IMG/VR virus record: IMGVR_UViG_3300005828_000085
Coordinates: 1 to 24,958 of that record
DNA: 24,958 bases
Origin: a virus
Strand: one strand, 5' to 3'
Numbering within the stretch: the stretch's first letter is position 1; every line of letters begins with the position of its first letter. Positions 2,798 to 18,052 of this stretch are shown here, one piece after another. Below the pieces are notes generated by a model, which saw nothing but the letters and a program-made list of their open reading frames with translations, was not told the origin of the DNA and made no database searches. Position numbers and translations under genes: made by a program.

Positions 2798-5287
2798 ATG
2801 TCCAAATACACCAGCACTCTGGCCCGCATGCTCAAGGCTGCCGGCCTGGACCCCGACGAGCTGATGGACGCCACAGCCGACCCTGTCAAAGCCTACAAGC
2901 TGTTCCGCAAGAAGGGCGACGACCTGTTCCCGTTGTTCGTCAATGCCGACCAGAAGGTCCCCCTGGGCGAGTGGCTCAAGGCGGAGGCCGGCGCACTGAC
3001 TGACACCGGCAAGGTGAAGTCGAGCATCGGGCCCCTGGCGTATCGCCCGGGCTGGCACGCGGGCGAGTATCCCCTGGCGACCCACATCGGCGGCAAGGCC
3101 ACCGAGCACGGCAAGATCCCGACGAAGCCCAACTACCGCCCCGACGACCAGGTGTGGGCCGAGATCGAGATGCCCGGCATAGTCGACTGGCAGAAGGTGG
3201 CCAACAGCCGCGCCGAGATGACCAAGGCGGGTAAGCCCCTATCGAGAACAGCACACATCACCGACCAGGTGCCCTACGGTGGCCACTACCGATACAAGAC
3301 CAACCCCAACATGACCGGGGACTGGTTGATCGGCGGCGATATGCGGGTGAACCGTATCCTGGACGACGCAGAAGTACGGGACCTGAACAGGGGCTCTGGC
3401 TCCGAGGACCTGCCCAGGCTCCGTAACCTGCAGAAACGGAAAGGATATGTCCCCGCCCTGGCGGCGACGGCAGTCGGTGCTGGCGCGCTGTCTGATACCG
3501 AGGAGGCGGAGGCGATGCCCCTGTACCGGGCGTTCCGCGGGGAGCACGGCGCGCTCGCCGACCTTGGCGAGAAATTCCAAACGCGCCTGGGCGCGCTATC
3601 CTTCGGCGACGCCAAAACGGCTAACCACTACGCCATGAGCCCGAATGTAAGCAGCGACGTACCAGTGCAGCCGCGCGTCTACCCGTCCAACGTGCGTATC
3701 GACAACCCGGTGATCAACAACCCGGAGGACCCGTTTCTGCCGTTCACTGACCTGGAGAAGGCCACCGGGTTCGATCATGCCAAGAAGGTGTTCACTGACC
3801 TGGCCGGCCTGAACGAGTCAGAGTACATCGACGATATGCTGGAGGAGTACGGCGTGGACAGCATCGACCAGCTGCCCGACGACGCCCTGCGCCAGCTGGA
3901 CGTGCCAGCTTTCGAGGTCTTCAACGACCCCGAGACTATCCAGCTGATGAAGGCCAACGGCTACGACGGCGGCATCACCGCCGGGTATGGTGACAACTAC
4001 GACCAGGTGGAGTTCCGCCCGTTCGACGAGGGCCAGGTGTCCCCGGCATTCGGAGAGCACCCGGCCAACTCCCTCGGCGAGGATAATGCCTGGCGCGAGC
4101 CCCCGACGGTCATACCTGACAGCGGCAAGTACGTCGCCGATCGCTTGGGCCGTGCTGCCGAGCAAGGGTTTGATACAAGCAGGCGGCTGTTCCACGGCAC
4201 CGCCAACGACATCGAGGCGTTCGATCCTGGTCGCGCTGGGCTGGTCTACGCAGCGGAAGATGACCCAGACTACGCCTCGATGTTCGCCGGTGTTCGGGAG
4301 GGGGCCAACGTGATGCCGCTGTACATGCGCCCCGGCAACCAGTTGGACATGGTAGACAACCCAGAGCACAGGCAGCTCGCCATAGACCTGTTCAATGAGA
4401 AAGGCGGCTGGGCAAACCGGGCCGAGATGGATGGTCATGGCCCAGACGAGGCACAGAATTTCTGGGATGAAATGTTGGGGGATGATGCGCCCAGGCGGGA
4501 CAGTTACCTGTACGACCCGGAGCTGGACATGGACTGGGAGATCCTGGACGACCCTGAGACCGGTCTGCTGTTCGACCTGCAGGGTATGGGCTACGACAGT
4601 TTCCGGTTCAAGGAGGATGACGGGGTGATCGCCCAGGCGACCCATGACCCGGCACGCATCCGGTCAGTCAACGCACAGTTCAAGGACCCGGGTTCTGAAA
4701 ATATACTGGCAGGCGGTACAGCCGCGGCAGTGGGCCTGGGTGCTCTTACAGACACACAGGAGGCCCAGGCCTACGACTACGGCACAGGGCAGCCTGGCGC
4801 GCCCCTGGCGGACCCCGACGCCTGGATGTACGAACGCCCCGCCCTAATGGAAGGGGCCCTGGGAGGGCTCCCTGAGAGCTTGCAGGCGGGTATCCTGGCC
4901 GCCGGCAAGGAGACCGACAAGCTGATCACCGGGGCCCGGGACCTGTTCGGGTCCGCCCTGGGCATCGACGAGGAGTGGCGCGGCAAGAACCAGGCGCGCC
5001 AGAAGGCCAACGACCGCGTGTTCGCGCCTGTGGAGGACGAGTACGTCGGAGCGACTATGGCAGGCAGTATGCTGCCCTACCTGGCCACAGGCGCGCTGTA
5101 CGGCACCCTGGGCCCGCTGGGTGCTGGAGCCACCGCCGCAGCCGAGGGTGCCCTGTACTACCAGGAGGACCCCACAGATCGACTGATCAACGCCGGCCTG
5201 GGCGGCGGGCTCGGCTACGGCGTCGGTAAGGGCCTGCAGAAGTGGGGCGAGCGCGTATCGCAGAACCCCTGGCGGAGGGGCCGATAA
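2798..5287 (+). CDS. Polyvalent protein with two ADP-ribosyltransferase-like domains (829 aa)
   Basis: Several modules are visible. Residues about 70-200 hold an RPGWH...ATHIGG domain ending in GDWLIGGDMRVNRIL, common in phage polyvalent proteins. Residues about 240-420 begin PLYRAFRGEHG, contain LGALSFGD and end GYDGGI...VEFRPFDEGQV. Residues about 460-630 begin LFHGTANDIEAFDPG, contain GLVYAAEDDPDYA and end GYDSF...IRSVNAQF. The last two match the layout of ART-PolyVal (ADP-ribosyltransferase in polyvalent proteins) domains. The C-terminus (about 670-829) is Gly/Ala-rich, as in phage ejection proteins. Hydrophobic linkers at 216-239 and 636-658 end in near-identical DTEEAEA and DTQEAQA. Likely role: injected with phage DNA to modify host targets by ADP-ribosylation. 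Family recognition is from motifs; activity is inferred. Confidence 0.8.
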   Translation: MSKYTSTLARMLKAAGLDPDELMDATADPVKAYKLFRKKGDDLFPLFVNADQKVPLGEWLKAEAGALTDTGKVKSSIGPLAYRPGWHAGEYPLATHIGGKATEHGKIPTKPNYRPDDQVWAEIEMPGIVDWQKVANSRAEMTKAGKPLSRTAHITDQVPYGGHYRYKTNPNMTGDWLIGGDMRVNRILDDAEVRDLNRGSGSEDLPRLRNLQKRKGYVPALAATAVGAGALSDTEEAEAMPLYRAFRGEHGALADLGEKFQTRLGALSFGDAKTANHYAMSPNVSSDVPVQPRVYPSNVRIDNPVINNPEDPFLPFTDLEKATGFDHAKKVFTDLAGLNESEYIDDMLEEYGVDSIDQLPDDALRQLDVPAFEVFNDPETIQLMKANGYDGGITAGYGDNYDQVEFRPFDEGQVSPAFGEHPANSLGEDNAWREPPTVIPDSGKYVADRLGRAAEQGFDTSRRLFHGTANDIEAFDPGRAGLVYAAEDDPDYASMFAGVREGANVMPLYMRPGNQLDMVDNPEHRQLAIDLFNEKGGWANRAEMDGHGPDEAQNFWDEMLGDDAPRRDSYLYDPELDMDWEILDDPETGLLFDLQGMGYDSFRFKEDDGVIAQATHDPARIRSVNAQFKDPGSENILAGGTAAAVGLGALTDTQEAQAYDYGTGQPGAPLADPDAWMYERPALMEGALGGLPESLQAGILAAGKETDKLITGARDLFGSALGIDEEWRGKNQARQKANDRVFAPVEDEYVGATMAGSMLPYLATGALYGTLGPLGAGATAAAEGALYYQEDPTDRLINAGLGGGLGYGVGKGLQKWGERVSQNPWRRGR

Positions 5288-6565
5288 ATGCCCAGATTTG
5301 TTTCCTGGCTCGAGAAAGCAATCAACGAGTTGCCCCAGGCGAAGGCCACCGCGCAGCAGTGGATGGCCCAGCTCAAGAAATCGCCCCTGGCGAACATGAA
5401 CGAGATCGAGGATCGCGGCCTGGACGAATTCCTGGGCGGGCAGTACGACCGGTCCGGTGGCCGGGCGATCGCCAAGGAGGACATCCAGGGCTGGCTCAGT
5501 GAGCAACCGATGCCGATGCCCCAACGGTTGGGAGCCGGCAACGACTACGACGAGTACGCCACACCCGGCCTGGCCCAGTACCGCAACTATGTGGAGGCGG
5601 AGCCCATGTGGGACCCGCGAGATCCTTCCGATCACTTCAGCGGTTACCCTGGCTACCGGCAGCACACTCGCGGCGGCATGTTGGAGAACACCAACGTCGG
5701 GCGCACCCAGGTCCTGGACGAGGTCCAGAGCGATCTCAAGGGCAACATTCGCGACCGGTGGGACCCGGAGGGCATGACCCAGAGCGAGGCGGCCCTGTAC
5801 ACCCCGGAGGGGGCCAGGACGGGCCCCTGGCGGCGTGTGAATCCCTACCTGGGCTACGACTCCACCCCGATCGAGGAGATGACCTACATGCCCGGGTCGA
5901 TGTCCGACGACCTGGGGCAGGCCCAGTACGAGATCGAGCAGCTGCGCCAGGAGATCCCCCAGGGCGGCGACCTGGACTGGGGGCTCCAGGAGCTGGCGAG
6001 CTACAACCAGGACGTGGCTACCCGCGGCCGGGCGAACATGCCAGGCAAGGACCGCATGGAGTGGCAGGCGATGGCCAACTACCTGAACGACGCGGTGGAG
6101 GGTGACATGGGCGCGCTGGCCTGGCCCAGCTCGGACGTCCAGTACCGTCGCTACTTCAAGCGCAGCCCGGAGCATTACCAGTCAGTCCTGGACACCGCGG
6201 CGGCGGACGCCAAACTGTTCGAGGGTAACTCCTTCGGCCGGGAGGGCGTGCGACGCGAGCAGGCCGAGGCGAAGCAGGCCCTGGGCTCACTGCAGATGTA
6301 CAAGAACCAGTACGACAAGCGGATGCCCAGGGACAAGCGGTGGAAGCAGCTCGGCCTGGAGCCGAAGCTGGTGGACCTGAGCAACACCAGGCCGAAAGGC
6401 TGGAGCCCCTCGAGCCCGGGTGATGGTAGTCGCCCGCTGGGCAAGTATTGGGTGGTACAGCTAACGCCTGAAACGAAGGCCAGGCTGAAGGAAAGCGGCA
6501 TCCCCTATTATGTTATGGGTGGAGCCGCGGTACTTGGTCAAGAGGACGACGGCGCGCTGGATTGA
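5288..6565 (+). CDS. Polyvalent-protein-type virion protein with VQSD motif (425 aa)
   Basis: The ATG directly follows the upstream TAA, with GGAGGGG nearby. Residues about 1-75 (SWLEKAINELPQ...QWMAQLKK...GLDEFLGG...IAKEDIQGWL) match a helical domain widespread in large phage polyvalent proteins. An HTRGG...VLDEVQSDL segment (about 125-155) matches another, where the usual form is E-I/V-Q-S-D followed by a helix. In known large polyvalent proteins such domains sit in one chain; here they are a separate gene beside the ART-domain gene. The C-terminus is a short hydrophobic YYVMGGAAVLG followed by acidic residues, like its neighbours. It overlaps the convergent gene on the other strand by 28 bp. 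Function unknown; probably injected into the host. Confidence 0.75.
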   Translation: MPRFVSWLEKAINELPQAKATAQQWMAQLKKSPLANMNEIEDRGLDEFLGGQYDRSGGRAIAKEDIQGWLSEQPMPMPQRLGAGNDYDEYATPGLAQYRNYVEAEPMWDPRDPSDHFSGYPGYRQHTRGGMLENTNVGRTQVLDEVQSDLKGNIRDRWDPEGMTQSEAALYTPEGARTGPWRRVNPYLGYDSTPIEEMTYMPGSMSDDLGQAQYEIEQLRQEIPQGGDLDWGLQELASYNQDVATRGRANMPGKDRMEWQAMANYLNDAVEGDMGALAWPSSDVQYRRYFKRSPEHYQSVLDTAAADAKLFEGNSFGREGVRREQAEAKQALGSLQMYKNQYDKRMPRDKRWKQLGLEPKLVDLSNTRPKGWSPSSPGDGSRPLGKYWVVQLTPETKARLKESGIPYYVMGGAAVLGQEDDGALD

Positions 6566-7637: not shown

Positions 7638-7979
7638 TCAGCTCCCCATGTACAATGTGATGGTGCCATCTTCCTGGGGGTAGATCCGCTCCAGGAATAT
7701 GTGGTGGAAATCACCGGTGTGGTTGATCGCATCGTTCACCAGCTCCATGATGCGGTACCAGGTGTAGTGTGGCAGGACATGGTGGCGGTAGACCTTGCTC
7801 TCGTCGTCGCCCCACCCGTCGTACTCCAGGACGCCGGACAGCTGCGCCGGCATCTCCAGTTGCTGGACCGACTCCGGGCCGGTCTTATCCATGCTGAAGA
7901 CCAGCTTCACGTCGTTGCTGACCTGGGACAGGTACAGCTGCACGGCGAAGTCGATCTTATCCCTTGTTTCGTAATCCAT
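7638..7979 (-). CDS. Hypothetical phage protein (113 aa)
   Basis: The ATG at 7979 follows a GAGGAG ribosome-binding site that sits in the loop of a small TGATC/GATCA hairpin. The protein starts MDYETRDKIDFAVQLYL. It has a central Asp/Gly-rich acidic section (LEYDGWGDDESKVYRHH) and ends in alternating hydrophobic residues (GTITLYMGS). The multiple His residues (RHH, HHIF) are notable but form no metal motif I can name. It is the first gene after the structured inverted-repeat element at 8003-8126, so its translation may depend on that element. Confidence 0.75.
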   Translation of the reverse strand: MDYETRDKIDFAVQLYLSQVSNDVKLVFSMDKTGPESVQQLEMPAQLSGVLEYDGWGDDESKVYRHHVLPHYTWYRIMELVNDAINHTGDFHHIFLERIYPQEDGTITLYMGS

Positions 7980-7981
7980 GA

Positions 7982-7996
7982 TGATCTCCTCGATCA
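7982..7996 (-). promoter_or_regulatory. Shine-Dalgarno held in the loop of a small hairpin (copy 1)
   Basis: On the minus strand this reads TGATC-GAGGA-GATCA: 5-bp arms with the ribosome-binding bases in the loop, a few bases before the ATG at 7979. The same 15 bases (17 with the flank) occur before the DUF932 gene at 9138-9152. A protein or small RNA could control translation of both genes through it. Confidence 0.5.
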
Positions 7997-8002
7997 GTTA
8001 AT

Positions 8003-8126
8003 CCCTTCTTGAAGCACCCGGCTCCACCGCGCGGGGGTAGCTACTCCCCCTGGGCTCCTAACCTGCGATGTCGTCCTGGCCTTGAAACGGTGAGCGCACT
8101 GTCCCGCCCAGGTGCTTCAAGAAGGG
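8003..8126 (-). ncRNA. Structured intergenic element bounded by a perfect 16-bp inverted repeat
   Basis: CCCTTCTTGAAGCACC at 8003-8018 is exactly repeated in inverted form at 8111-8126, leaving 92 bases between. Inside, 8021-8029 can pair with 8088-8095 (8 bp, one bulged base), and GGGGG at 8033-8037 with CCCCC at 8046-8050. CCTGGGC at 8049-8055 can also pair with GCCCAGG at 8106-8112, which crosses the inner stem and could form a pseudoknot or alternative fold. It starts five bases after one stop codon and ends just before a ribosome-binding site in the same operon. Candidate roles: RNase III processing site, attenuator, stable small RNA or DNA hairpin origin. There is no U-tract, so it is not a standard terminator. 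The strand is assumed from the operon. Confidence 0.5.
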
Positions 8127-8131
8127 CCCGA

Positions 8132-8386
8132 TTACTCGGGCATGTAGTCCGGTTCCCACACCGGGTTAGGGCAAGGCGCGGCCATCCGGTCCGCCAGTTC
8201 TTCGGCGTCTTCCTTGGCGAATTGAATATCGTCCAACACCTTCTGGCGGTCGTAGGCCAGGCACGCAGCGCGCTCTATCGCAGCTTCACGGGCAGCACGC
8301 TCCCTGGCGGGCCGTCCTACCTCCAGAGCAATGCTCTGGAGGAGGGCGATCACGATGCCGAAGCAGATCGCGATCCCGAGGCTCAC
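8132..8386 (-). CDS. Small membrane-anchored helical protein (84 aa, GTG start)
   Basis: The GTG at 8386 overlaps the TGA of the DUF932 gene (GTGA), and GAGGTGG precedes it. A longer in-frame reading is possible but would sit inside the upstream gene. Residues about 3-20 (LGIAICFGIVIALLQSIA) form one membrane helix. The rest is a long charged helix rich in Ala, Glu and Arg, probably coiled-coil, ending in a Pro-rich tail (PCPNPVWEPDYMPE). The layout resembles a phage inner-membrane accessory protein with a cytoplasmic or periplasmic helical domain. No spanin-type lipoprotein partner or holin neighbour is seen, so a lysis role is not supported. Confidence 0.7.
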   Translation of the reverse strand: MSLGIAICFGIVIALLQSIALEVGRPARERAAREAAIERAACLAYDRQKVLDDIQFAKEDAEELADRMAAPCPNPVWEPDYMPE

Positions 8387-9135
8387 AGTCCCACCACCTC
8401 GTCGATGAATCCGACGGCCTTGCTGGTGCGAGCGCGGACCAGGTCCATGTTGCACTGCTCGCCGGTAGGCTTGTTAGCCTCGGTCACGGCCTGCAGCAGA
8501 CGCCAGGCGGTGAACCCGTCCTCGGCGTGCTCGGCGTAGGACGGACGGTCCCACTCCTGGATCGCACGGCCCAGCTGCGCGCTGGTCATGGCACCCTGGC
8601 GGGTCATCTCGACCAGGGCAGCATCGCCCCAGCGAGGGCGCATGTCGAACAGGCGGTACGCATCGGCGCGCTCGTTCTCGCGCTCGGCCAGGGCCGGGAT
8701 GCGAGATACAGCCTGGTCAACCATCGCCGGCAAGCGGTTCCACACGTTGGTGGTCTGCTTGGTCGACAGGTTAGCCATGTCACCGTTGAAGCACATATTG
8801 CTGCAGACGATGACGCGGTTGCCCAGGCAGATCGCACGCGGCGTCTTCTGGCTGTGGCTGCCGCGGACACCCAGGGTGATGCTCATGTCATCACGCTGGA
8901 ACCCGTCCAGGCCGAGCTGGAGCGTTCCGAAGAACGTGTCGCCGGCCTTGTCCAGGCAGTATTCCTCTGCCTCGACGGTGATGCCCACGCGGTCCAGGCG
9001 CATGCGGATCAGGTCCATGAAGTCCCCGAAGCCGACGGGCTGGTGGAAACGTCCCTGGGGTGCAGGGGTCGGGACCAGGGCCAGCTGGTCTGCGGTCAGG
9101 ATCTGGTCCTGGGCTGAGTACATTAAACGTGCCAT
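8383..9135 (-). CDS. DUF932 family phage/plasmid protein (250 aa)
   Basis: The protein shows the hallmarks I associate with DUF932 proteins of phages and plasmids. These are a G-V-R-G-S-H-S block followed by C-L-G-N-R-V-I-V-C-S-N-M-C-F-N-G at about residues 90-120, a helical region rich in Glu and Arg, and a late W-R-L-L-Q-A-V-T-E segment near residue 215. The family is widespread on mobile elements, but its biochemical role is not established to my knowledge. Start: ATG at 9135 after GAGGAG set in a hairpin loop. It sits in the early accessory segment, consistent with takeover or counter-defence, which is inference only. Confidence 0.8.
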   Translation of the reverse strand: MARLMYSAQDQILTADQLALVPTPAPQGRFHQPVGFGDFMDLIRMRLDRVGITVEAEEYCLDKAGDTFFGTLQLGLDGFQRDDMSITLGVRGSHSQKTPRAICLGNRVIVCSNMCFNGDMANLSTKQTTNVWNRLPAMVDQAVSRIPALAERENERADAYRLFDMRPRWGDAALVEMTRQGAMTSAQLGRAIQEWDRPSYAEHAEDGFTAWRLLQAVTEANKPTGEQCNMDLVRARTSKAVGFIDEVVGL

Positions 9136-9137
9136 GT

Positions 9138-9152
9138 TGATCTCCTCGATCA
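9138..9152 (-). promoter_or_regulatory. Shine-Dalgarno held in the loop of a small hairpin (copy 2)
   Basis: This is the same TGATC-GAGGA-GATCA element as at 7982-7996, directly before the ATG of the DUF932 gene at 9135. Identity extends two more bases upstream. The two genes it precedes share no obvious sequence, so the leader itself seems to have been kept or copied. Confidence 0.5.
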
Positions 9153-9157
9153 GTAGA

Positions 9158-9436
9158 TTAAGCCGCGCGACGCGCGGCAGTTGAACGGGCGGTGACCTTG
9201 ATCGAAGTGACCAGGGAAACCTTGGTGTGAGCAGCGATCAGCTGGAAGCTGGGGTTCAGCTTCTTGCAGATGTTCTGCCAGTTGGTGGTCTTGCGGTTCT
9301 GCTCGATGATGGCCGCCTTGAACAGCTGGCCTTCAACGTCACCAGAGGCCAGGACCTGCGCCTTCAGTGCTGCTTCTTCCTCACGCAGTGCAGCGATTTC
9401 CGCCTGCACCCGACCCAATCTATCTACTGCTTTCAT
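9158..9436 (-). CDS. Small phage protein with N-terminal coiled coil (92 aa)
   Basis: The ATG at 9436 follows GGAGAG. The first 30 residues (DRLGRVQAEIAALREEEAAL) form a heptad-like coiled coil. The C-terminal half (NWQNICKKLNPSFQLIAAHT then VTARS) resembles a short segment found in many phage proteins of unknown function, which could be a compact nucleic-acid-binding unit. The tail is basic (TARSTAARRAA). It is the first gene after one copy of a duplicated leader cassette, so it probably has its own transcription or translation control. Function unknown. Confidence 0.75.
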   Translation of the reverse strand: MKAVDRLGRVQAEIAALREEEAALKAQVLASGDVEGQLFKAAIIEQNRKTTNWQNICKKLNPSFQLIAAHTKVSLVTSIKVTARSTAARRAA

Positions 9437-10131: not shown

Positions 10132-11494
10132 ACGCCACCATGAGCCCGTCCTGGACCCCGGCCTTCTGGGTCAGGCTCCTGGTGATCTTGTCCTCGACCT
10201 CGCCGGCGACCAGGTGCCGGACGAACACCGTGGACTCCTGGCCCTGGCGATCGAGCCTGGCGATCACCTGCTGGTAGGTCTCCAGGTTCCAGTCGGCGGA
10301 GTAGAACAGGACGTTGTGCCCGCCCTTCTGCAGGTTCAGGCCGTGCCCCGCGGACTGTGGCTGTACCAGGAGCAGCGGCAGCTCGCGTTTATTCCAGGCG
10401 GCGATCCATGCGTCGGCGTCGCGGTCCTTGGTGCCACCGCCCAGCCAGGGGACGTGCCCCAGCTGCTCCTTGATCATCGCCAGCTCCTCCTGGTAGGTGT
10501 AGACCACCAGCAGGGGCTCGCCGTCCATCTCCTCGAGGACCTCCTCCAGGGCGCGGACCTTTCCTGTGTGTAACCTGTGGACACCGCCGTCCTCGTCGAG
10601 CATGAACCCGGAGGAGACCTGGCGCAGCTTCGTCTGTACCACCGCCATGTGGCTGGGCAGCACGACGGTGCCGTCCGGCATGTTCGCGACCAGGTCGTTC
10701 TCCAGCTCCTGGTAGATCGCCCGGACCTTCGCCGGCAGCTCCAGGCGCACGCTGGGCAACTGCACCGGGGGCAGCTGTCCCAGGACGTCGGAGGCGCGCA
10801 TGCTGATCACGCCGGCCTTCCTGAGCGTTTCGTTTATTGCGTTTATCGCCCCTGGCCGCGGCACCCAGCGGTGGTATCGCCTGGGGTCGCTGCTGGTGTC
10901 GATGAAATACTTGTTCAGGTAGGTGCCCTTCACCGGCCCCAGGGCGCGCCCCTCATCGAGGCAGTACATCTGCGCCCACAGGTCCGGGTAACCGTTCGGT
11001 GCCGGCGTGCCGGTGAGCCCGAGCCGGTAGGGTTTGTGCCTGGCCAGGATGCGCTTGAACGCGCGCCAGCGCATGCTGCCGGAGTTCTTCATCTTGGACA
11101 GCTCGTCCAGGACAACGGTGTCGAACGGGAACAGCCCGGTCTCCTCGAGCCATTGCAGCTTCTCATAGGTCAGGAGGTAGACGTCGGCTTGCGGCTTCTT
11201 TAGTTCGGCCACGCGCTTTGCGGGACTCTGGTTTAACAGGCTCACAGAAAGCGGGTACTTCCAGTGGGTCACCTCCTGTCGCCAGACCTGGTCGCAGATC
11301 CGCTTCGGTGCGATCACCAGGGTCCGCCGGGTCTTTCCCTTCCACATCCGCCAGGCCAGGATCTCCAGGGTCGTGAGCGTCTTGCCCAGGCCCATCTCCA
11401 GGAACAGGGCGTTTCCTTTTCCCTTTGTTACATGCGACGCCACTCGCTTTTGATAGTCGTGCAATGGCGCAGTTAGCTTGTAGGTCATTGTCAA
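10124..11494 (-). CDS. SNF2/SF2-type DNA helicase (456 aa)
   Basis: Superfamily 2 helicase motifs appear in order: Q-type opening (LHDYQKRV), Walker A MGLGKT (residues 34-39), DELS in place of DEAH (130-133), TGTPAPN (161-167) and motif VI QVIARLDRQGQ (409-419). Length fits the compact SNF2-like helicases that phages carry next to VRR-NUC and family A polymerase genes. It probably uses ATP to remodel or unwind DNA during replication or recombination. Start: TTG at 11494 with AAGG nine bases upstream; the ATG at 11488 is an in-frame alternative. The first part overlaps the end of the VRR-NUC reading frame. Confidence 0.93.
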   Translation of the reverse strand: MTMTYKLTAPLHDYQKRVASHVTKGKGNALFLEMGLGKTLTTLEILAWRMWKGKTRRTLVIAPKRICDQVWRQEVTHWKYPLSVSLLNQSPAKRVAELKKPQADVYLLTYEKLQWLEETGLFPFDTVVLDELSKMKNSGSMRWRAFKRILARHKPYRLGLTGTPAPNGYPDLWAQMYCLDEGRALGPVKGTYLNKYFIDTSSDPRRYHRWVPRPGAINAINETLRKAGVISMRASDVLGQLPPVQLPSVRLELPAKVRAIYQELENDLVANMPDGTVVLPSHMAVVQTKLRQVSSGFMLDEDGGVHRLHTGKVRALEEVLEEMDGEPLLVVYTYQEELAMIKEQLGHVPWLGGGTKDRDADAWIAAWNKRELPLLLVQPQSAGHGLNLQKGGHNVLFYSADWNLETYQQVIARLDRQGQESTVFVRHLVAGEVEDKITRSLTQKAGVQDGLMVALK

Positions 11495-14317: not shown

Positions 14318-15385
14318 TTAGGCGTCTTTAAAATCGTCGGCGGCGTCGGTGGTGATCGCAGGGCGTTTGTCCTTCGCGGACACCAGCACAGGCTGCCCTT
14401 CGGGTTTTATCGTCAATGCGTTCATCGTCTCAGCGTCCAACAGTTTCTCACCGGCTCCTATGCCGATGAGTTTTCGATCATACGCTGCATCCCCAAGTAC
14501 GGCAACAAGTTCTTCTTCGCCGACCCACTTCCGCATCGTATTAGCCCGGACCAACTTGTAGCCAGGGATCTCGTTACCCTTGAGCGCGAGCCCCTGGGCG
14601 TGTTCCTGCACGGCCTTCGCCCACGCCATCAGCGGCGGGATCATCTCCAGGTCGTCGGCCAGCTTGTCGGTATCCTCCGGCACGCTGAACTCCTGGGCGG
14701 CCAGGGCGTTGCGGTATGACTGCAGCTCCTGGCACTCGATGACGTGCGGGCAGAACCGGCACTGGTCCTCACCGGCGTTGTAGCTGTGCTTGCCCTTGAG
14801 GGCCGCCTGCTCTGCCAGGGCGACGTACTGCCGGACACCGGCCGCATACGCCAGGAGCGTCTCGCTGTGCGTCTCGTGCACCTTCGCGTGCCCGCCCTGG
14901 TGGACGATCAACTCCACCGGCCCGTTGTACTCGATCTCGTAGCAGCAGGCCGCGCCGTAGATCATGAGCTGGCTGGAGCTGGGCTCCACCGGGTGCATGC
15001 CGGTCTTCAGGTCGATGACCTTCAGCAGCTTGTCGTTCACCACCAGGGCGTCGATTGCGCCGGTCGCCCCATCCTCGCCGGTGATCGGCGTGAGGTGGCA
15101 GTTGACCTCGATGTGGATCTGGTTGTTGAAGTCTTCCTCGTGGTCGCGGACGTAGTTGACGTAGTCGACGATCGCCATGACATCCTCGACCGCGGCCGGA
15201 TCGTTCTGGTCGATCTGCCCGGTCAGTACGTCGGCGGCCAGCTCGTGCAGCATGGTCCCGCGCTCTGCCGCCGGGGAGCTGGTGTCCCTGGCCAGGGCCT
15301 CGGGCGATACCGCGGTGACGGAGGCGGAACACTTCAACCACCTGGGGGAACCGCTCGGGCTCCACTTCGCGTGTCCATTAATCAT
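14318..15385 (-). CDS. Cas4/RecB-like nuclease, DUF2800 family (355 aa)
   Basis: PD-(D/E)xK nuclease motifs are complete: GTMLHELA (His47), GAIDAL (Asp112), VIDLKTG (Asp125, Lys127) and QLMIY (Gln139, Tyr143). Four cysteines, Cys19 plus CRFC-x5-C (209, 212, 218), match the iron-sulphur cluster layout of Cas4 and AddB-type nucleases. Phage DUF2800 proteins occur directly beside DUF2815 SSBs, as here. Likely role: DNA end processing or recombination exonuclease in replication. Start: ATG at 15385, overlapping the upstream stop (ATGA). Confidence 0.9.
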   Translation of the reverse strand: MINGHAKWSPSGSPRWLKCSASVTAVSPEALARDTSSPAAERGTMLHELAADVLTGQIDQNDPAAVEDVMAIVDYVNYVRDHEEDFNNQIHIEVNCHLTPITGEDGATGAIDALVVNDKLLKVIDLKTGMHPVEPSSSQLMIYGAACCYEIEYNGPVELIVHQGGHAKVHETHSETLLAYAAGVRQYVALAEQAALKGKHSYNAGEDQCRFCPHVIECQELQSYRNALAAQEFSVPEDTDKLADDLEMIPPLMAWAKAVQEHAQGLALKGNEIPGYKLVRANTMRKWVGEEELVAVLGDAAYDRKLIGIGAGEKLLDAETMNALTIKPEGQPVLVSAKDKRPAITTDAADDFKDA

Positions 15386-15991: not shown

Positions 15992-18052
15992 GTGATGGGA
16001 AGTAAAAAACAGGCCCCGGGGAAGGGGCCTACAAATGAACAGTTCCTGGCGGGAGTGTTCGGGGAAACTCATAATACCATCCTGGTCTGCAGTTTCAAGG
16101 GCCACCCCAAGGATGCACCGCAGTCCGCCTGGGTCCCGTTCAAGTGGCGCGAGGACTACGCCTGGGACGACCAGGCCAACAACTACTTCACCGTCAGCAC
16201 CTTCACCGGCAAGAACCGGCGCAAGCGCGACTTCGTCGCCCTGCATGTGGTGATGGTCGACGACGTGATCCTGAACGGGACCCACGTCGGCGGCAAGATC
16301 CCCAGGGAGGCGATCGCCCTACCCCCGACCTACGCCATCGAGACGTCGCCGGGCAACGCCCAGGTGGGCTACAAGCTCACCGAGCCGGTGACCGACCTGA
16401 CCATCGCCACCCGCCTGATCGCCGGCATCGCCAAGCGGGTGAGCCCGGACGAGACGGACCCGGGCATGCTGGGCGTCACCCGGTACGCCAAGCTCCCCCA
16501 GGGCGTGAACGGCAAGCACGGGCACGTCAACCGGATGAAGGGGTGGCACCCTGAGCGCACCTACACCGTGCGCGAGCTGTGCGCTGCCTACGACCTGGAC
16601 TACGAGGCCCTGATCGAGAAGCCGAAGCCTGTCCTGTTCGATACCGAGAGGTACCCGGAGGGCGGCCCGGTGGTCGAGGCCCTGGACTGGTACGCCCAGC
16701 TGGGCAGCCTGAAGGAGGAGACCCCGGACAAGTTCGAGCTGACCTGCCCCTGGGTCGATGGTCACAGCGAGGACCGTGACGACGGGTGCGCGATCGGCAA
16801 GCCAGGCTCCCACCCTGAGCTGCCCGGGTTCTGGTTCAAGTGCCACCACGGCAGCTGCCAGGACCGCACGCTCAACGATTTCATGTCCTGGTGCCGGGAG
16901 CAGGGGTTCGGCAAGACGGACGCCGCGGCCGACTTCGCCGGCCTGGAGGACGTCGACCTGGAGTACGAGCCCCCAAAGCCTGAGCCGGCGACGGGTTTCA
17001 AGCTATTCAGCTATGACAACCTGGACCCGGCGACCCCGCCCCCGCGGCAGCTGGTGGAGGATGTGCTCGTCTACGGCGAGATGACCCTGATCAGCGCGCA
17101 GCCCAACACCGGCAAGTCTGCCTTCGCCCTGGACCTGGCCGAGCACGTCGCGGCCGGCGATCCCTGGCACGGCAAGCTGGTGGAGCAGTGCACGGCCCTG
17201 TACGTCTGCGCGGAGTCACCGGCCACCATCGAGTCCAGGATGCGCGCGATCCGCGCCAGGCGGGGCGGCAGCGTCCCCCTGTACGGCACCTATGACCCGA
17301 TCACGTTGACGACCGAGGCCGACCGGAGCCTGTTCAGCGGCAAGATGAAGGCGACCCTGCGCGAGCTGCCAGGGACCAACCTGATCATCGTGGACACCTT
17401 CCGGTCCGCGACCCCAGGCATCGACGAGTCCGACGCGAAGGAGATCTCGCCGGTGGTGACCTACCTGCACCGCATGGCGCACGAGCTGGGCGTCCACGTC
17501 ATCCTGGTGCACCACACGACCAAGGCCGGCACGTCGTACTCTGGCTCCGGCGTGTTCGGGGCCATCGTCGACACCGAGATCGTGATCTGGGACGAAACGG
17601 ACCTGGACGGCGAGACCGAGGGACATGACAATCGCGGCTGCATCGTCGCCCACATCCGGCAGCAGCGCGGCCTGGCATCCAAGAACGAGGAGTTCTTCTA
17701 CCTGATCGAGTCGGCCGAGACGGGTCGGACCAACAACTTCGGGAAGCTCGAGACGGCCCCTGTGGTCCGCCAGGTCTCCCAGATGGAGCTGGATATGGGC
17801 CAGGCCGAGCGCGAGAGTGCCGAGGAGGAGCGCGCCAGGCTCGACCTGGAGGCGGATCTGGAGCGTATGGTGCATGCGACCCTGGCCGACCCGAGCATTG
17901 GAAAGGCGCGGTTGGCGCAGCTGTTAAGTATTGGTGAGAGGAGGGTGGATGCGGTGCGTCAGTTCGGCCTTGATAGGGGTGTTCTGGGCACCAATGGACG
18001 GCCTGGAAACGGGTGCAGATGGCACGTTATTCCAGAGTGTGACAGAGTATGA
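15992..18052 (+). CDS. Primase-helicase fusion: primase-like N-terminus plus RecA-like ATPase (686 aa)
   Basis: Three modules are visible. Residues about 15-210 resemble archaeo-eukaryotic/RepB-type primase domains, with VVMVDDV (Asp90, Asp91), AIETSPGNAQVGYKL and VTRYAKLPQGVNGK. Residues about 250-305 hold a Cys/His cluster (Cys252, His258, Cys266, Cys284, His286, Cys289) like zinc modules of phage primases. Residues about 340-585 form a RecA-fold ATPase: Walker A SAQPNTGKS (368-376), Walker B LIIVD (464-468), then GVHVILVHHTT. Together these would make primers and translocate on DNA. The C-terminal 90 residues are charged and helical. Start: GTG at 15992 with GGAG seven bases before; the next codon, ATG at 15995, is an alternative. 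First gene of the rightward operon. Confidence 0.88.
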   Translation: MMGSKKQAPGKGPTNEQFLAGVFGETHNTILVCSFKGHPKDAPQSAWVPFKWREDYAWDDQANNYFTVSTFTGKNRRKRDFVALHVVMVDDVILNGTHVGGKIPREAIALPPTYAIETSPGNAQVGYKLTEPVTDLTIATRLIAGIAKRVSPDETDPGMLGVTRYAKLPQGVNGKHGHVNRMKGWHPERTYTVRELCAAYDLDYEALIEKPKPVLFDTERYPEGGPVVEALDWYAQLGSLKEETPDKFELTCPWVDGHSEDRDDGCAIGKPGSHPELPGFWFKCHHGSCQDRTLNDFMSWCREQGFGKTDAAADFAGLEDVDLEYEPPKPEPATGFKLFSYDNLDPATPPPRQLVEDVLVYGEMTLISAQPNTGKSAFALDLAEHVAAGDPWHGKLVEQCTALYVCAESPATIESRMRAIRARRGGSVPLYGTYDPITLTTEADRSLFSGKMKATLRELPGTNLIIVDTFRSATPGIDESDAKEISPVVTYLHRMAHELGVHVILVHHTTKAGTSYSGSGVFGAIVDTEIVIWDETDLDGETEGHDNRGCIVAHIRQQRGLASKNEEFFYLIESAETGRTNNFGKLETAPVVRQVSQMELDMGQAERESAEEERARLDLEADLERMVHATLADPSIGKARLAQLLSIGERRVDAVRQFGLDRGVLGTNGRPGNGCRWHVIPECDRV

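Follow-up and report, generated by a model that had tools for sequence, protein, structure and literature searches.

Between two co-directional genes of a 24,958-base virus record (hereafter the window, i.e. the whole stretch of DNA analysed), positions 8003–8126 carry a pair of inverted arms around a GC-rich interior. A sequence-only reading had presented this element as a candidate new phage RNA, built from nested stems and a crossing pairing. The locus raises the question of how much of the proposed pairing exceeds chance, and what the remainder might do.

Results

A perfect outer inverted repeat fills an intergenic gap

The outer inverted repeat is real. Its arms (8003–8018 and 8111–8126) match perfectly over 16 bp at a spacing of 92 nt, exactly as had been claimed, and constitute the longest perfect inverted repeat in the 25-kb window at spacings of up to 200 nt. 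Among 300 dinucleotide-preserving shuffles of the whole window, searched with the same spacing limit, the longest perfect repeat reached 16 bp only once. The element lies inside a 152-bp gap between two genes on the − strand (8132–8455 and 7638–7979) and starts 5 nt past the stop codon of the upstream gene, in line with the earlier description of an element filling the space between its neighbours. Codon-usage scores across it are negative in all six frames, indicating noncoding sequence; as the repeat also falls exactly within this noncoding gap, a chance origin becomes less likely. Both arm sequences occur only once in the genome, and each holds the near-dyad CTTC-TT-GAAG. No U-tract follows either arm, as the sequence-only reading had also stated (coordinates of all features in Table 1).

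In RNA of the − strand, i.e. the sense strand of the operon, the outer stem is predicted to extend to 19 uninterrupted pairs through a single U·G pair, U(8110)–G(8019), whereas in + strand RNA an A faces a C at this position and the stem ends at 16 pairs. That the extension is available on the sense strand alone hints mildly that the stem acts in the sense RNA of the operon. The − strand fold of the whole element was markedly stable (z = −4.46; 0 of 200 shuffles equally stable), compared to z = +0.51 for the loop by itself, so the excess stability stems from the outer stem alone.

Table 1. Features at and around the element, with positions in the window
Feature	Position	Strand	Description
Upstream gene	8132–8455	−	107-aa ORF, no family; codon usage favours coding in this frame
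5′ arm of outer stem	8111–8126	−	CCCUUCUUGAAGCACC; lengthened to 8108 by a U-G wobble and two G-C pairs; identical in the relative G001
Interior	8019–8110	−	92 nt, noncoding, fold at shuffle level; differs from G001 at 8085 and 8095–8098
Proposed inner 8-bp bulged stem	8021–8095	−	Strings present, chance-level; one pair lost in G001, uncompensated
3′ arm of outer stem	8003–8018	−	GGUGCUUCAAGAAGGG; extends to 8021; identical in G001
Ribosome-binding leader of downstream gene	7982–7996	−	TGATCGAGGAGATCA; 5-bp hairpin, Shine-Dalgarno sequence in loop
Downstream gene	7638–7979	−	113-aa ORF without a family; strong coding signal

The interior pairs no better than shuffled sequence

Compared to shuffled sequences, the 92-nt interior showed no additional folding stability, whether on the − strand (z = +0.51) or on the + strand (z = +1.46). 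All of the inner pairings named in the sequence-only reading do exist as strings: an 8-bp stem with one bulge (GCTCCACCG at 8021–8029 with CGGTGAGC at 8088–8095), a hairpin (GGGGG at 8033–8037 with CCCCC at 8046–8050) and a crossing pairing (CCTGGGC at 8049–8055 with GCCCAGG at 8106–8112). They cannot all form together, however, because the crossing pairing takes bases 8111–8112 from the outer arm and 8049–8050 from the CCCCC of the hairpin, with at most 5 bp left. Likewise, G8021 is claimed twice: it belongs to the inner stem and also, on the − strand, to the outer stem once this is extended to 19 bp.

Neither do such pairings call for a special explanation. In 1000 shuffled loops, which took in two bases of each arm, a Watson-Crick helix of at least 7 bp arose 227 times (about 23%), and 394 of the loops contained at least as many helices (five) of 5 bp or longer. 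Together with the interior z scores, these counts do not bear out the view that multiple nested pairings in so short a spacer are improbable. The useful outcome is a negative one: nested and crossing pairings are to be expected by chance from a GC-rich loop of 92 nt.

A near-identical relative retains the arms

The only close relative found among viral contigs, IMGVR_UViG_3300005824_000019 (G001; 41,169 bp), is 99.6% identical to the window over the shared part and, judging from its 120-bp end repeat, probably represents a complete genome. Five of the 85 differing aligned positions fall within the element, all of them in the loop (8085 and 8095–8098). The outer arms are identical, and the 19-bp stem is common to both predicted folds. 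The predicted interior folds differ between the two versions, that of G001 likewise lying at shuffle level (z = −0.01). On the − strand, 8095–8098 reads TGCG in the window and AATT in G001, and the change at 8095 costs the proposed 8-bp inner stem one of its pairs. None of the five loop differences is compensatory, in a comparison that involves a single near-identical relative. For the same reason, with about half a change expected per 124 bp at 99.6% identity, conservation of the arms is weak evidence.

Runs of neighbouring differences between the two genomes occurred at 8095–8098, 10922–10925, 5293–5296 and 15186–15189. The cluster in the loop is thus not peculiar to the element, similar ones being found elsewhere (10922–10925, 5293–5296). 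Such runs are hard to account for by point mutations arising independently; one of them creates an EcoRI site within the G001 loop. In a predicted gene region of G001 outside the window (16647–16687; L030), we further noticed an inverted repeat of ~12 bp with an 11-nt loop.

Operon context

The − strand encodes a family A DNA polymerase, an SNF2-type helicase, an Enc34-type ssDNA-binding protein and a DUF2800/PD-(D/E)XK nuclease, and the + strand an AAA/DnaB-like helicase, a terminase and an SU10-type portal. Also on this late strand, an 829-aa protein (2798–5287) matched ART-PolyVal just above the cut-off. ART-PolyVal denotes an ADP-ribosyltransferase in polyvalent proteins, and the 829-aa protein is possibly an injected phage protein. 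No tRNA was found in the window, nor an integrase or recombinase among the genes identified. GC skew tracks gene strand and does not switch at the element, for which reason we rejected a replication origin. A scan detected neither a sigma-70-like promoter nor a terminator near the element, which would therefore belong to the operon transcript.

The 107-aa upstream ORF is likely shorter in reality, starting from an internal codon. Its coding sequence contains a second strong hairpin (8316–8345, − strand; CCUCCAGAGCAUUGCUCUGGAGG; −21.8 kcal/mol, z = −5.3), ~190 nt upstream of the element. The leader of the downstream gene recurs identically at 9138–9152 (− strand) ahead of another operon gene, the two copies sharing a Shine-Dalgarno GAGGA in the loop of the 5-bp hairpin, immediately before the ATG, and might serve as a common translational operator. 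The other copy directly follows its stop codon (9136–9160). In the predicted 236-nt fold, the downstream Shine-Dalgarno sequence lies outside the stem and is unpaired with the element. A 250-aa protein encoded at 8383–9135 (− strand) had no Pfam or PHROG match; its relatives (25–30% identity), present in few viral contigs, share the motif VCxNMCFNGDM and have no inverted repeat nearby.

Searches for homologues

An Rfam search, which the sequence-only reading had suggested, gave no match at the gathering threshold and no credible family even at E 10. At the DNA level, phages, plasmids and E. coli genomes yielded only chance-level matches to the element. The arm-pair pattern, run against viral contigs and 84,980 species genomes, retrieved G001 plus chance matches; for instance, a hit in Bacteroidota (L074) proved to be a longer inverted repeat of its own that contains the same 12 letters, and was judged a coincidence. 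A 22-pair inverted repeat (L046) was discarded as a homologue since it sits in an unrelated AT-rich gap. The core pattern of inner stem and crossing strand occurred in 15 stretches, all of which except G001 lacked the outer stem, and an 18-mer from the loop core matched G001 alone. G001 was also the sole match of the 113-aa downstream protein, with none in the species genomes, and relatives of the DNA polymerase (about 25–38% identity) were without homologues of the genes flanking the element. No second copy of the element was present in the window or in the 41-kb G001.

Discussion

We read the element as a hairpin that acts in cis between two genes of the leftward (− strand) replication-operon mRNA, as an RNase III-type processing or stability site, and assign this reading a probability of roughly 0.5. 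Of the functions offered earlier, a processing site thus still describes the outer stem best. We infer transcription through the element, duplex formation in the cell, and cutting or protection: the arms would pair into a long duplex upon synthesis of the polycistronic mRNA, and a double-strand-specific ribonuclease of the RNase III type may cut this duplex, or the duplex may block exonucleases. The upstream and downstream messages would thereby be separated or become unequal in stability, while the downstream ribosome-binding site would stay free, outside the stem, and the 92-nt interior would act mostly as a spacer. Speaking for this hairpin are its intergenic position, the noncoding score, the extension restricted to the sense strand and the retention of the arms while the loop changed; against it stand its single copy and the lack of a homologue elsewhere in the collections searched. 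With 19 uninterrupted bp, 16 of them perfect, the predicted sense-RNA duplex is a borderline RNase III target when held against the criterion of about two helical turns, or 22 nt, the minimum used in PMC5371410. Being near this lower limit, it may equally well protect without being cut.

The same inverted repeat is predicted by a role at the DNA level and by an insertion remnant. The latter, or more broadly a repeat born by insertion or by chance (e.g. a MITE-like scrap bounded by terminal repeats of 16 bp, or the product of a template switch) that is functionless now, we regard as unlikely though worth keeping in view. Terminal inverted repeats, an unstructured interior and a length of 124 bp would all suit it, as would the position, with a stop codon on one side and, on the other, a conserved leader that elsewhere adjoins its stop codon (9136–9160). 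Against such an origin, the arms are still perfect, no clear target-site duplication was seen, the window and its 41-kb relative hold no second copy, phages, plasmids and E. coli genomes none beyond chance, and beyond G001 the arms recur in viral contigs and the 84,980 species genomes at chance level only. A site acting in DNA, with two inverted 16–19-bp half-sites bound by protein for looping, recombination or the start of replication, would make sense of the perfect inverted repeats, which suit dimeric binding, and of the arms, which hold a small near-dyad and occur nowhere else in the genome. Yet GC skew does not switch at the element, no integrase or recombinase is among the identified genes, and the U-G extension, confined to the sense RNA, argues mildly for RNA; we give a DNA site rather poor odds, lower than those of a functionless repeat. 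Hardly better placed is a stable structured RNA or riboregulator, a 124-nt RNA that would be set free to work in trans or as a sensor. Closure and protection of such a molecule would fall to the outer stem, and the 7-bp complement offers a possible alternative pairing. The headline of the sequence-only reading is nevertheless not supported, given an interior at chance level and predicted to fold differently in G001, mutually exclusive pairings, a lack of compensatory changes in this one relative and of any credible Rfam match at E 10, and no promoter-like site of the element's own. A bolder variant, a discrete ~120-nt RNA released by the 19-bp stem, with an interior that alternates between outer-stem pairing and the crossing CCUGGGC/GCCCAGG pairing, as a kind of regulator absent from Rfam, appears very unlikely.

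Two readings concern the upstream gene's end. The strong stem immediately after the stop codon could suggest that transcription is attenuated or terminated here by an atypical device, e.g. a Rho-linked one with a stabilising 3′ stem. This, too, we hold to be very improbable: the U-tract that an intrinsic terminator has after its stem is absent, the terminator scan gave no hit at the element, the flanking genes are co-directional, and a good ribosome-binding site comes after the stem. As for a stimulator of frameshifting or readthrough, the 5 nt between stop codon and stem would be fitting, and the other two forward frames remain open for ~20–34 codons beyond the stop; but with no slippery heptamer seen and codon usage noncoding in every frame across the element, we give this idea next to no credence.

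Overall, what this orphan phage carries between the two genes is a strong hairpin, probably an ordinary one and no new kind of RNA. If the hairpin serves in processing or stability, it illustrates how messages of a single operon are kept apart in a phage lineage otherwise uncharacterised, and would leave existing knowledge of phage RNA unchanged.

Comparison with known systems

HDV-like and theta ribozymes of phages resemble the element on paper, in the order of crossing strand, inner stem and hairpin. An HDV-like ribozyme is defined by its P1/P2/P3/P4 arrangement with a catalytic C opening J4/2 (PMC10879173). We rejected this assignment: a loose descriptor scan found no match in the arrangement that had been proposed, no HDV-type family of Rfam matched at E 10, and the pairings of the element, unlike those of the ribozymes, are chance-level and mutually exclusive. 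Theta ribozymes, moreover, typically lie beside a tRNA, whereas none is near the element or anywhere in the window. MITE-like elements share the perfect terminal inverted repeats and the length of about 124 bp, yet a MITE is recognised by its multiple copies or by a transposon akin to it; the present element is single copy, without target duplication or relatives, across the window, G001, phages, plasmids, E. coli and the species genomes.

Closer parallels come from processed mRNAs. RNase III sites are known in T7, T3 and lambda mRNAs, and cleavage between genes can leave a stabilising hairpin behind (PMC5371410). Like the RNase III hairpins of T7 early mRNA and of lambda (sib/int, N leader), the element would place a long intergenic duplex in a polycistronic phage mRNA between co-directional genes. 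It differs in that its stem is predicted from sequence, spans 19 bp against the 22-nt minimum (PMC5371410), and encloses a long loop of 86–92 nt. In E. coli, RNase III cleavage near ahpC-ahpF and pflB leaves stabilising hairpins (PMC5371410), and the candidate hairpin shares their layout, with a stem just past a stop codon and before the next ribosome-binding site.
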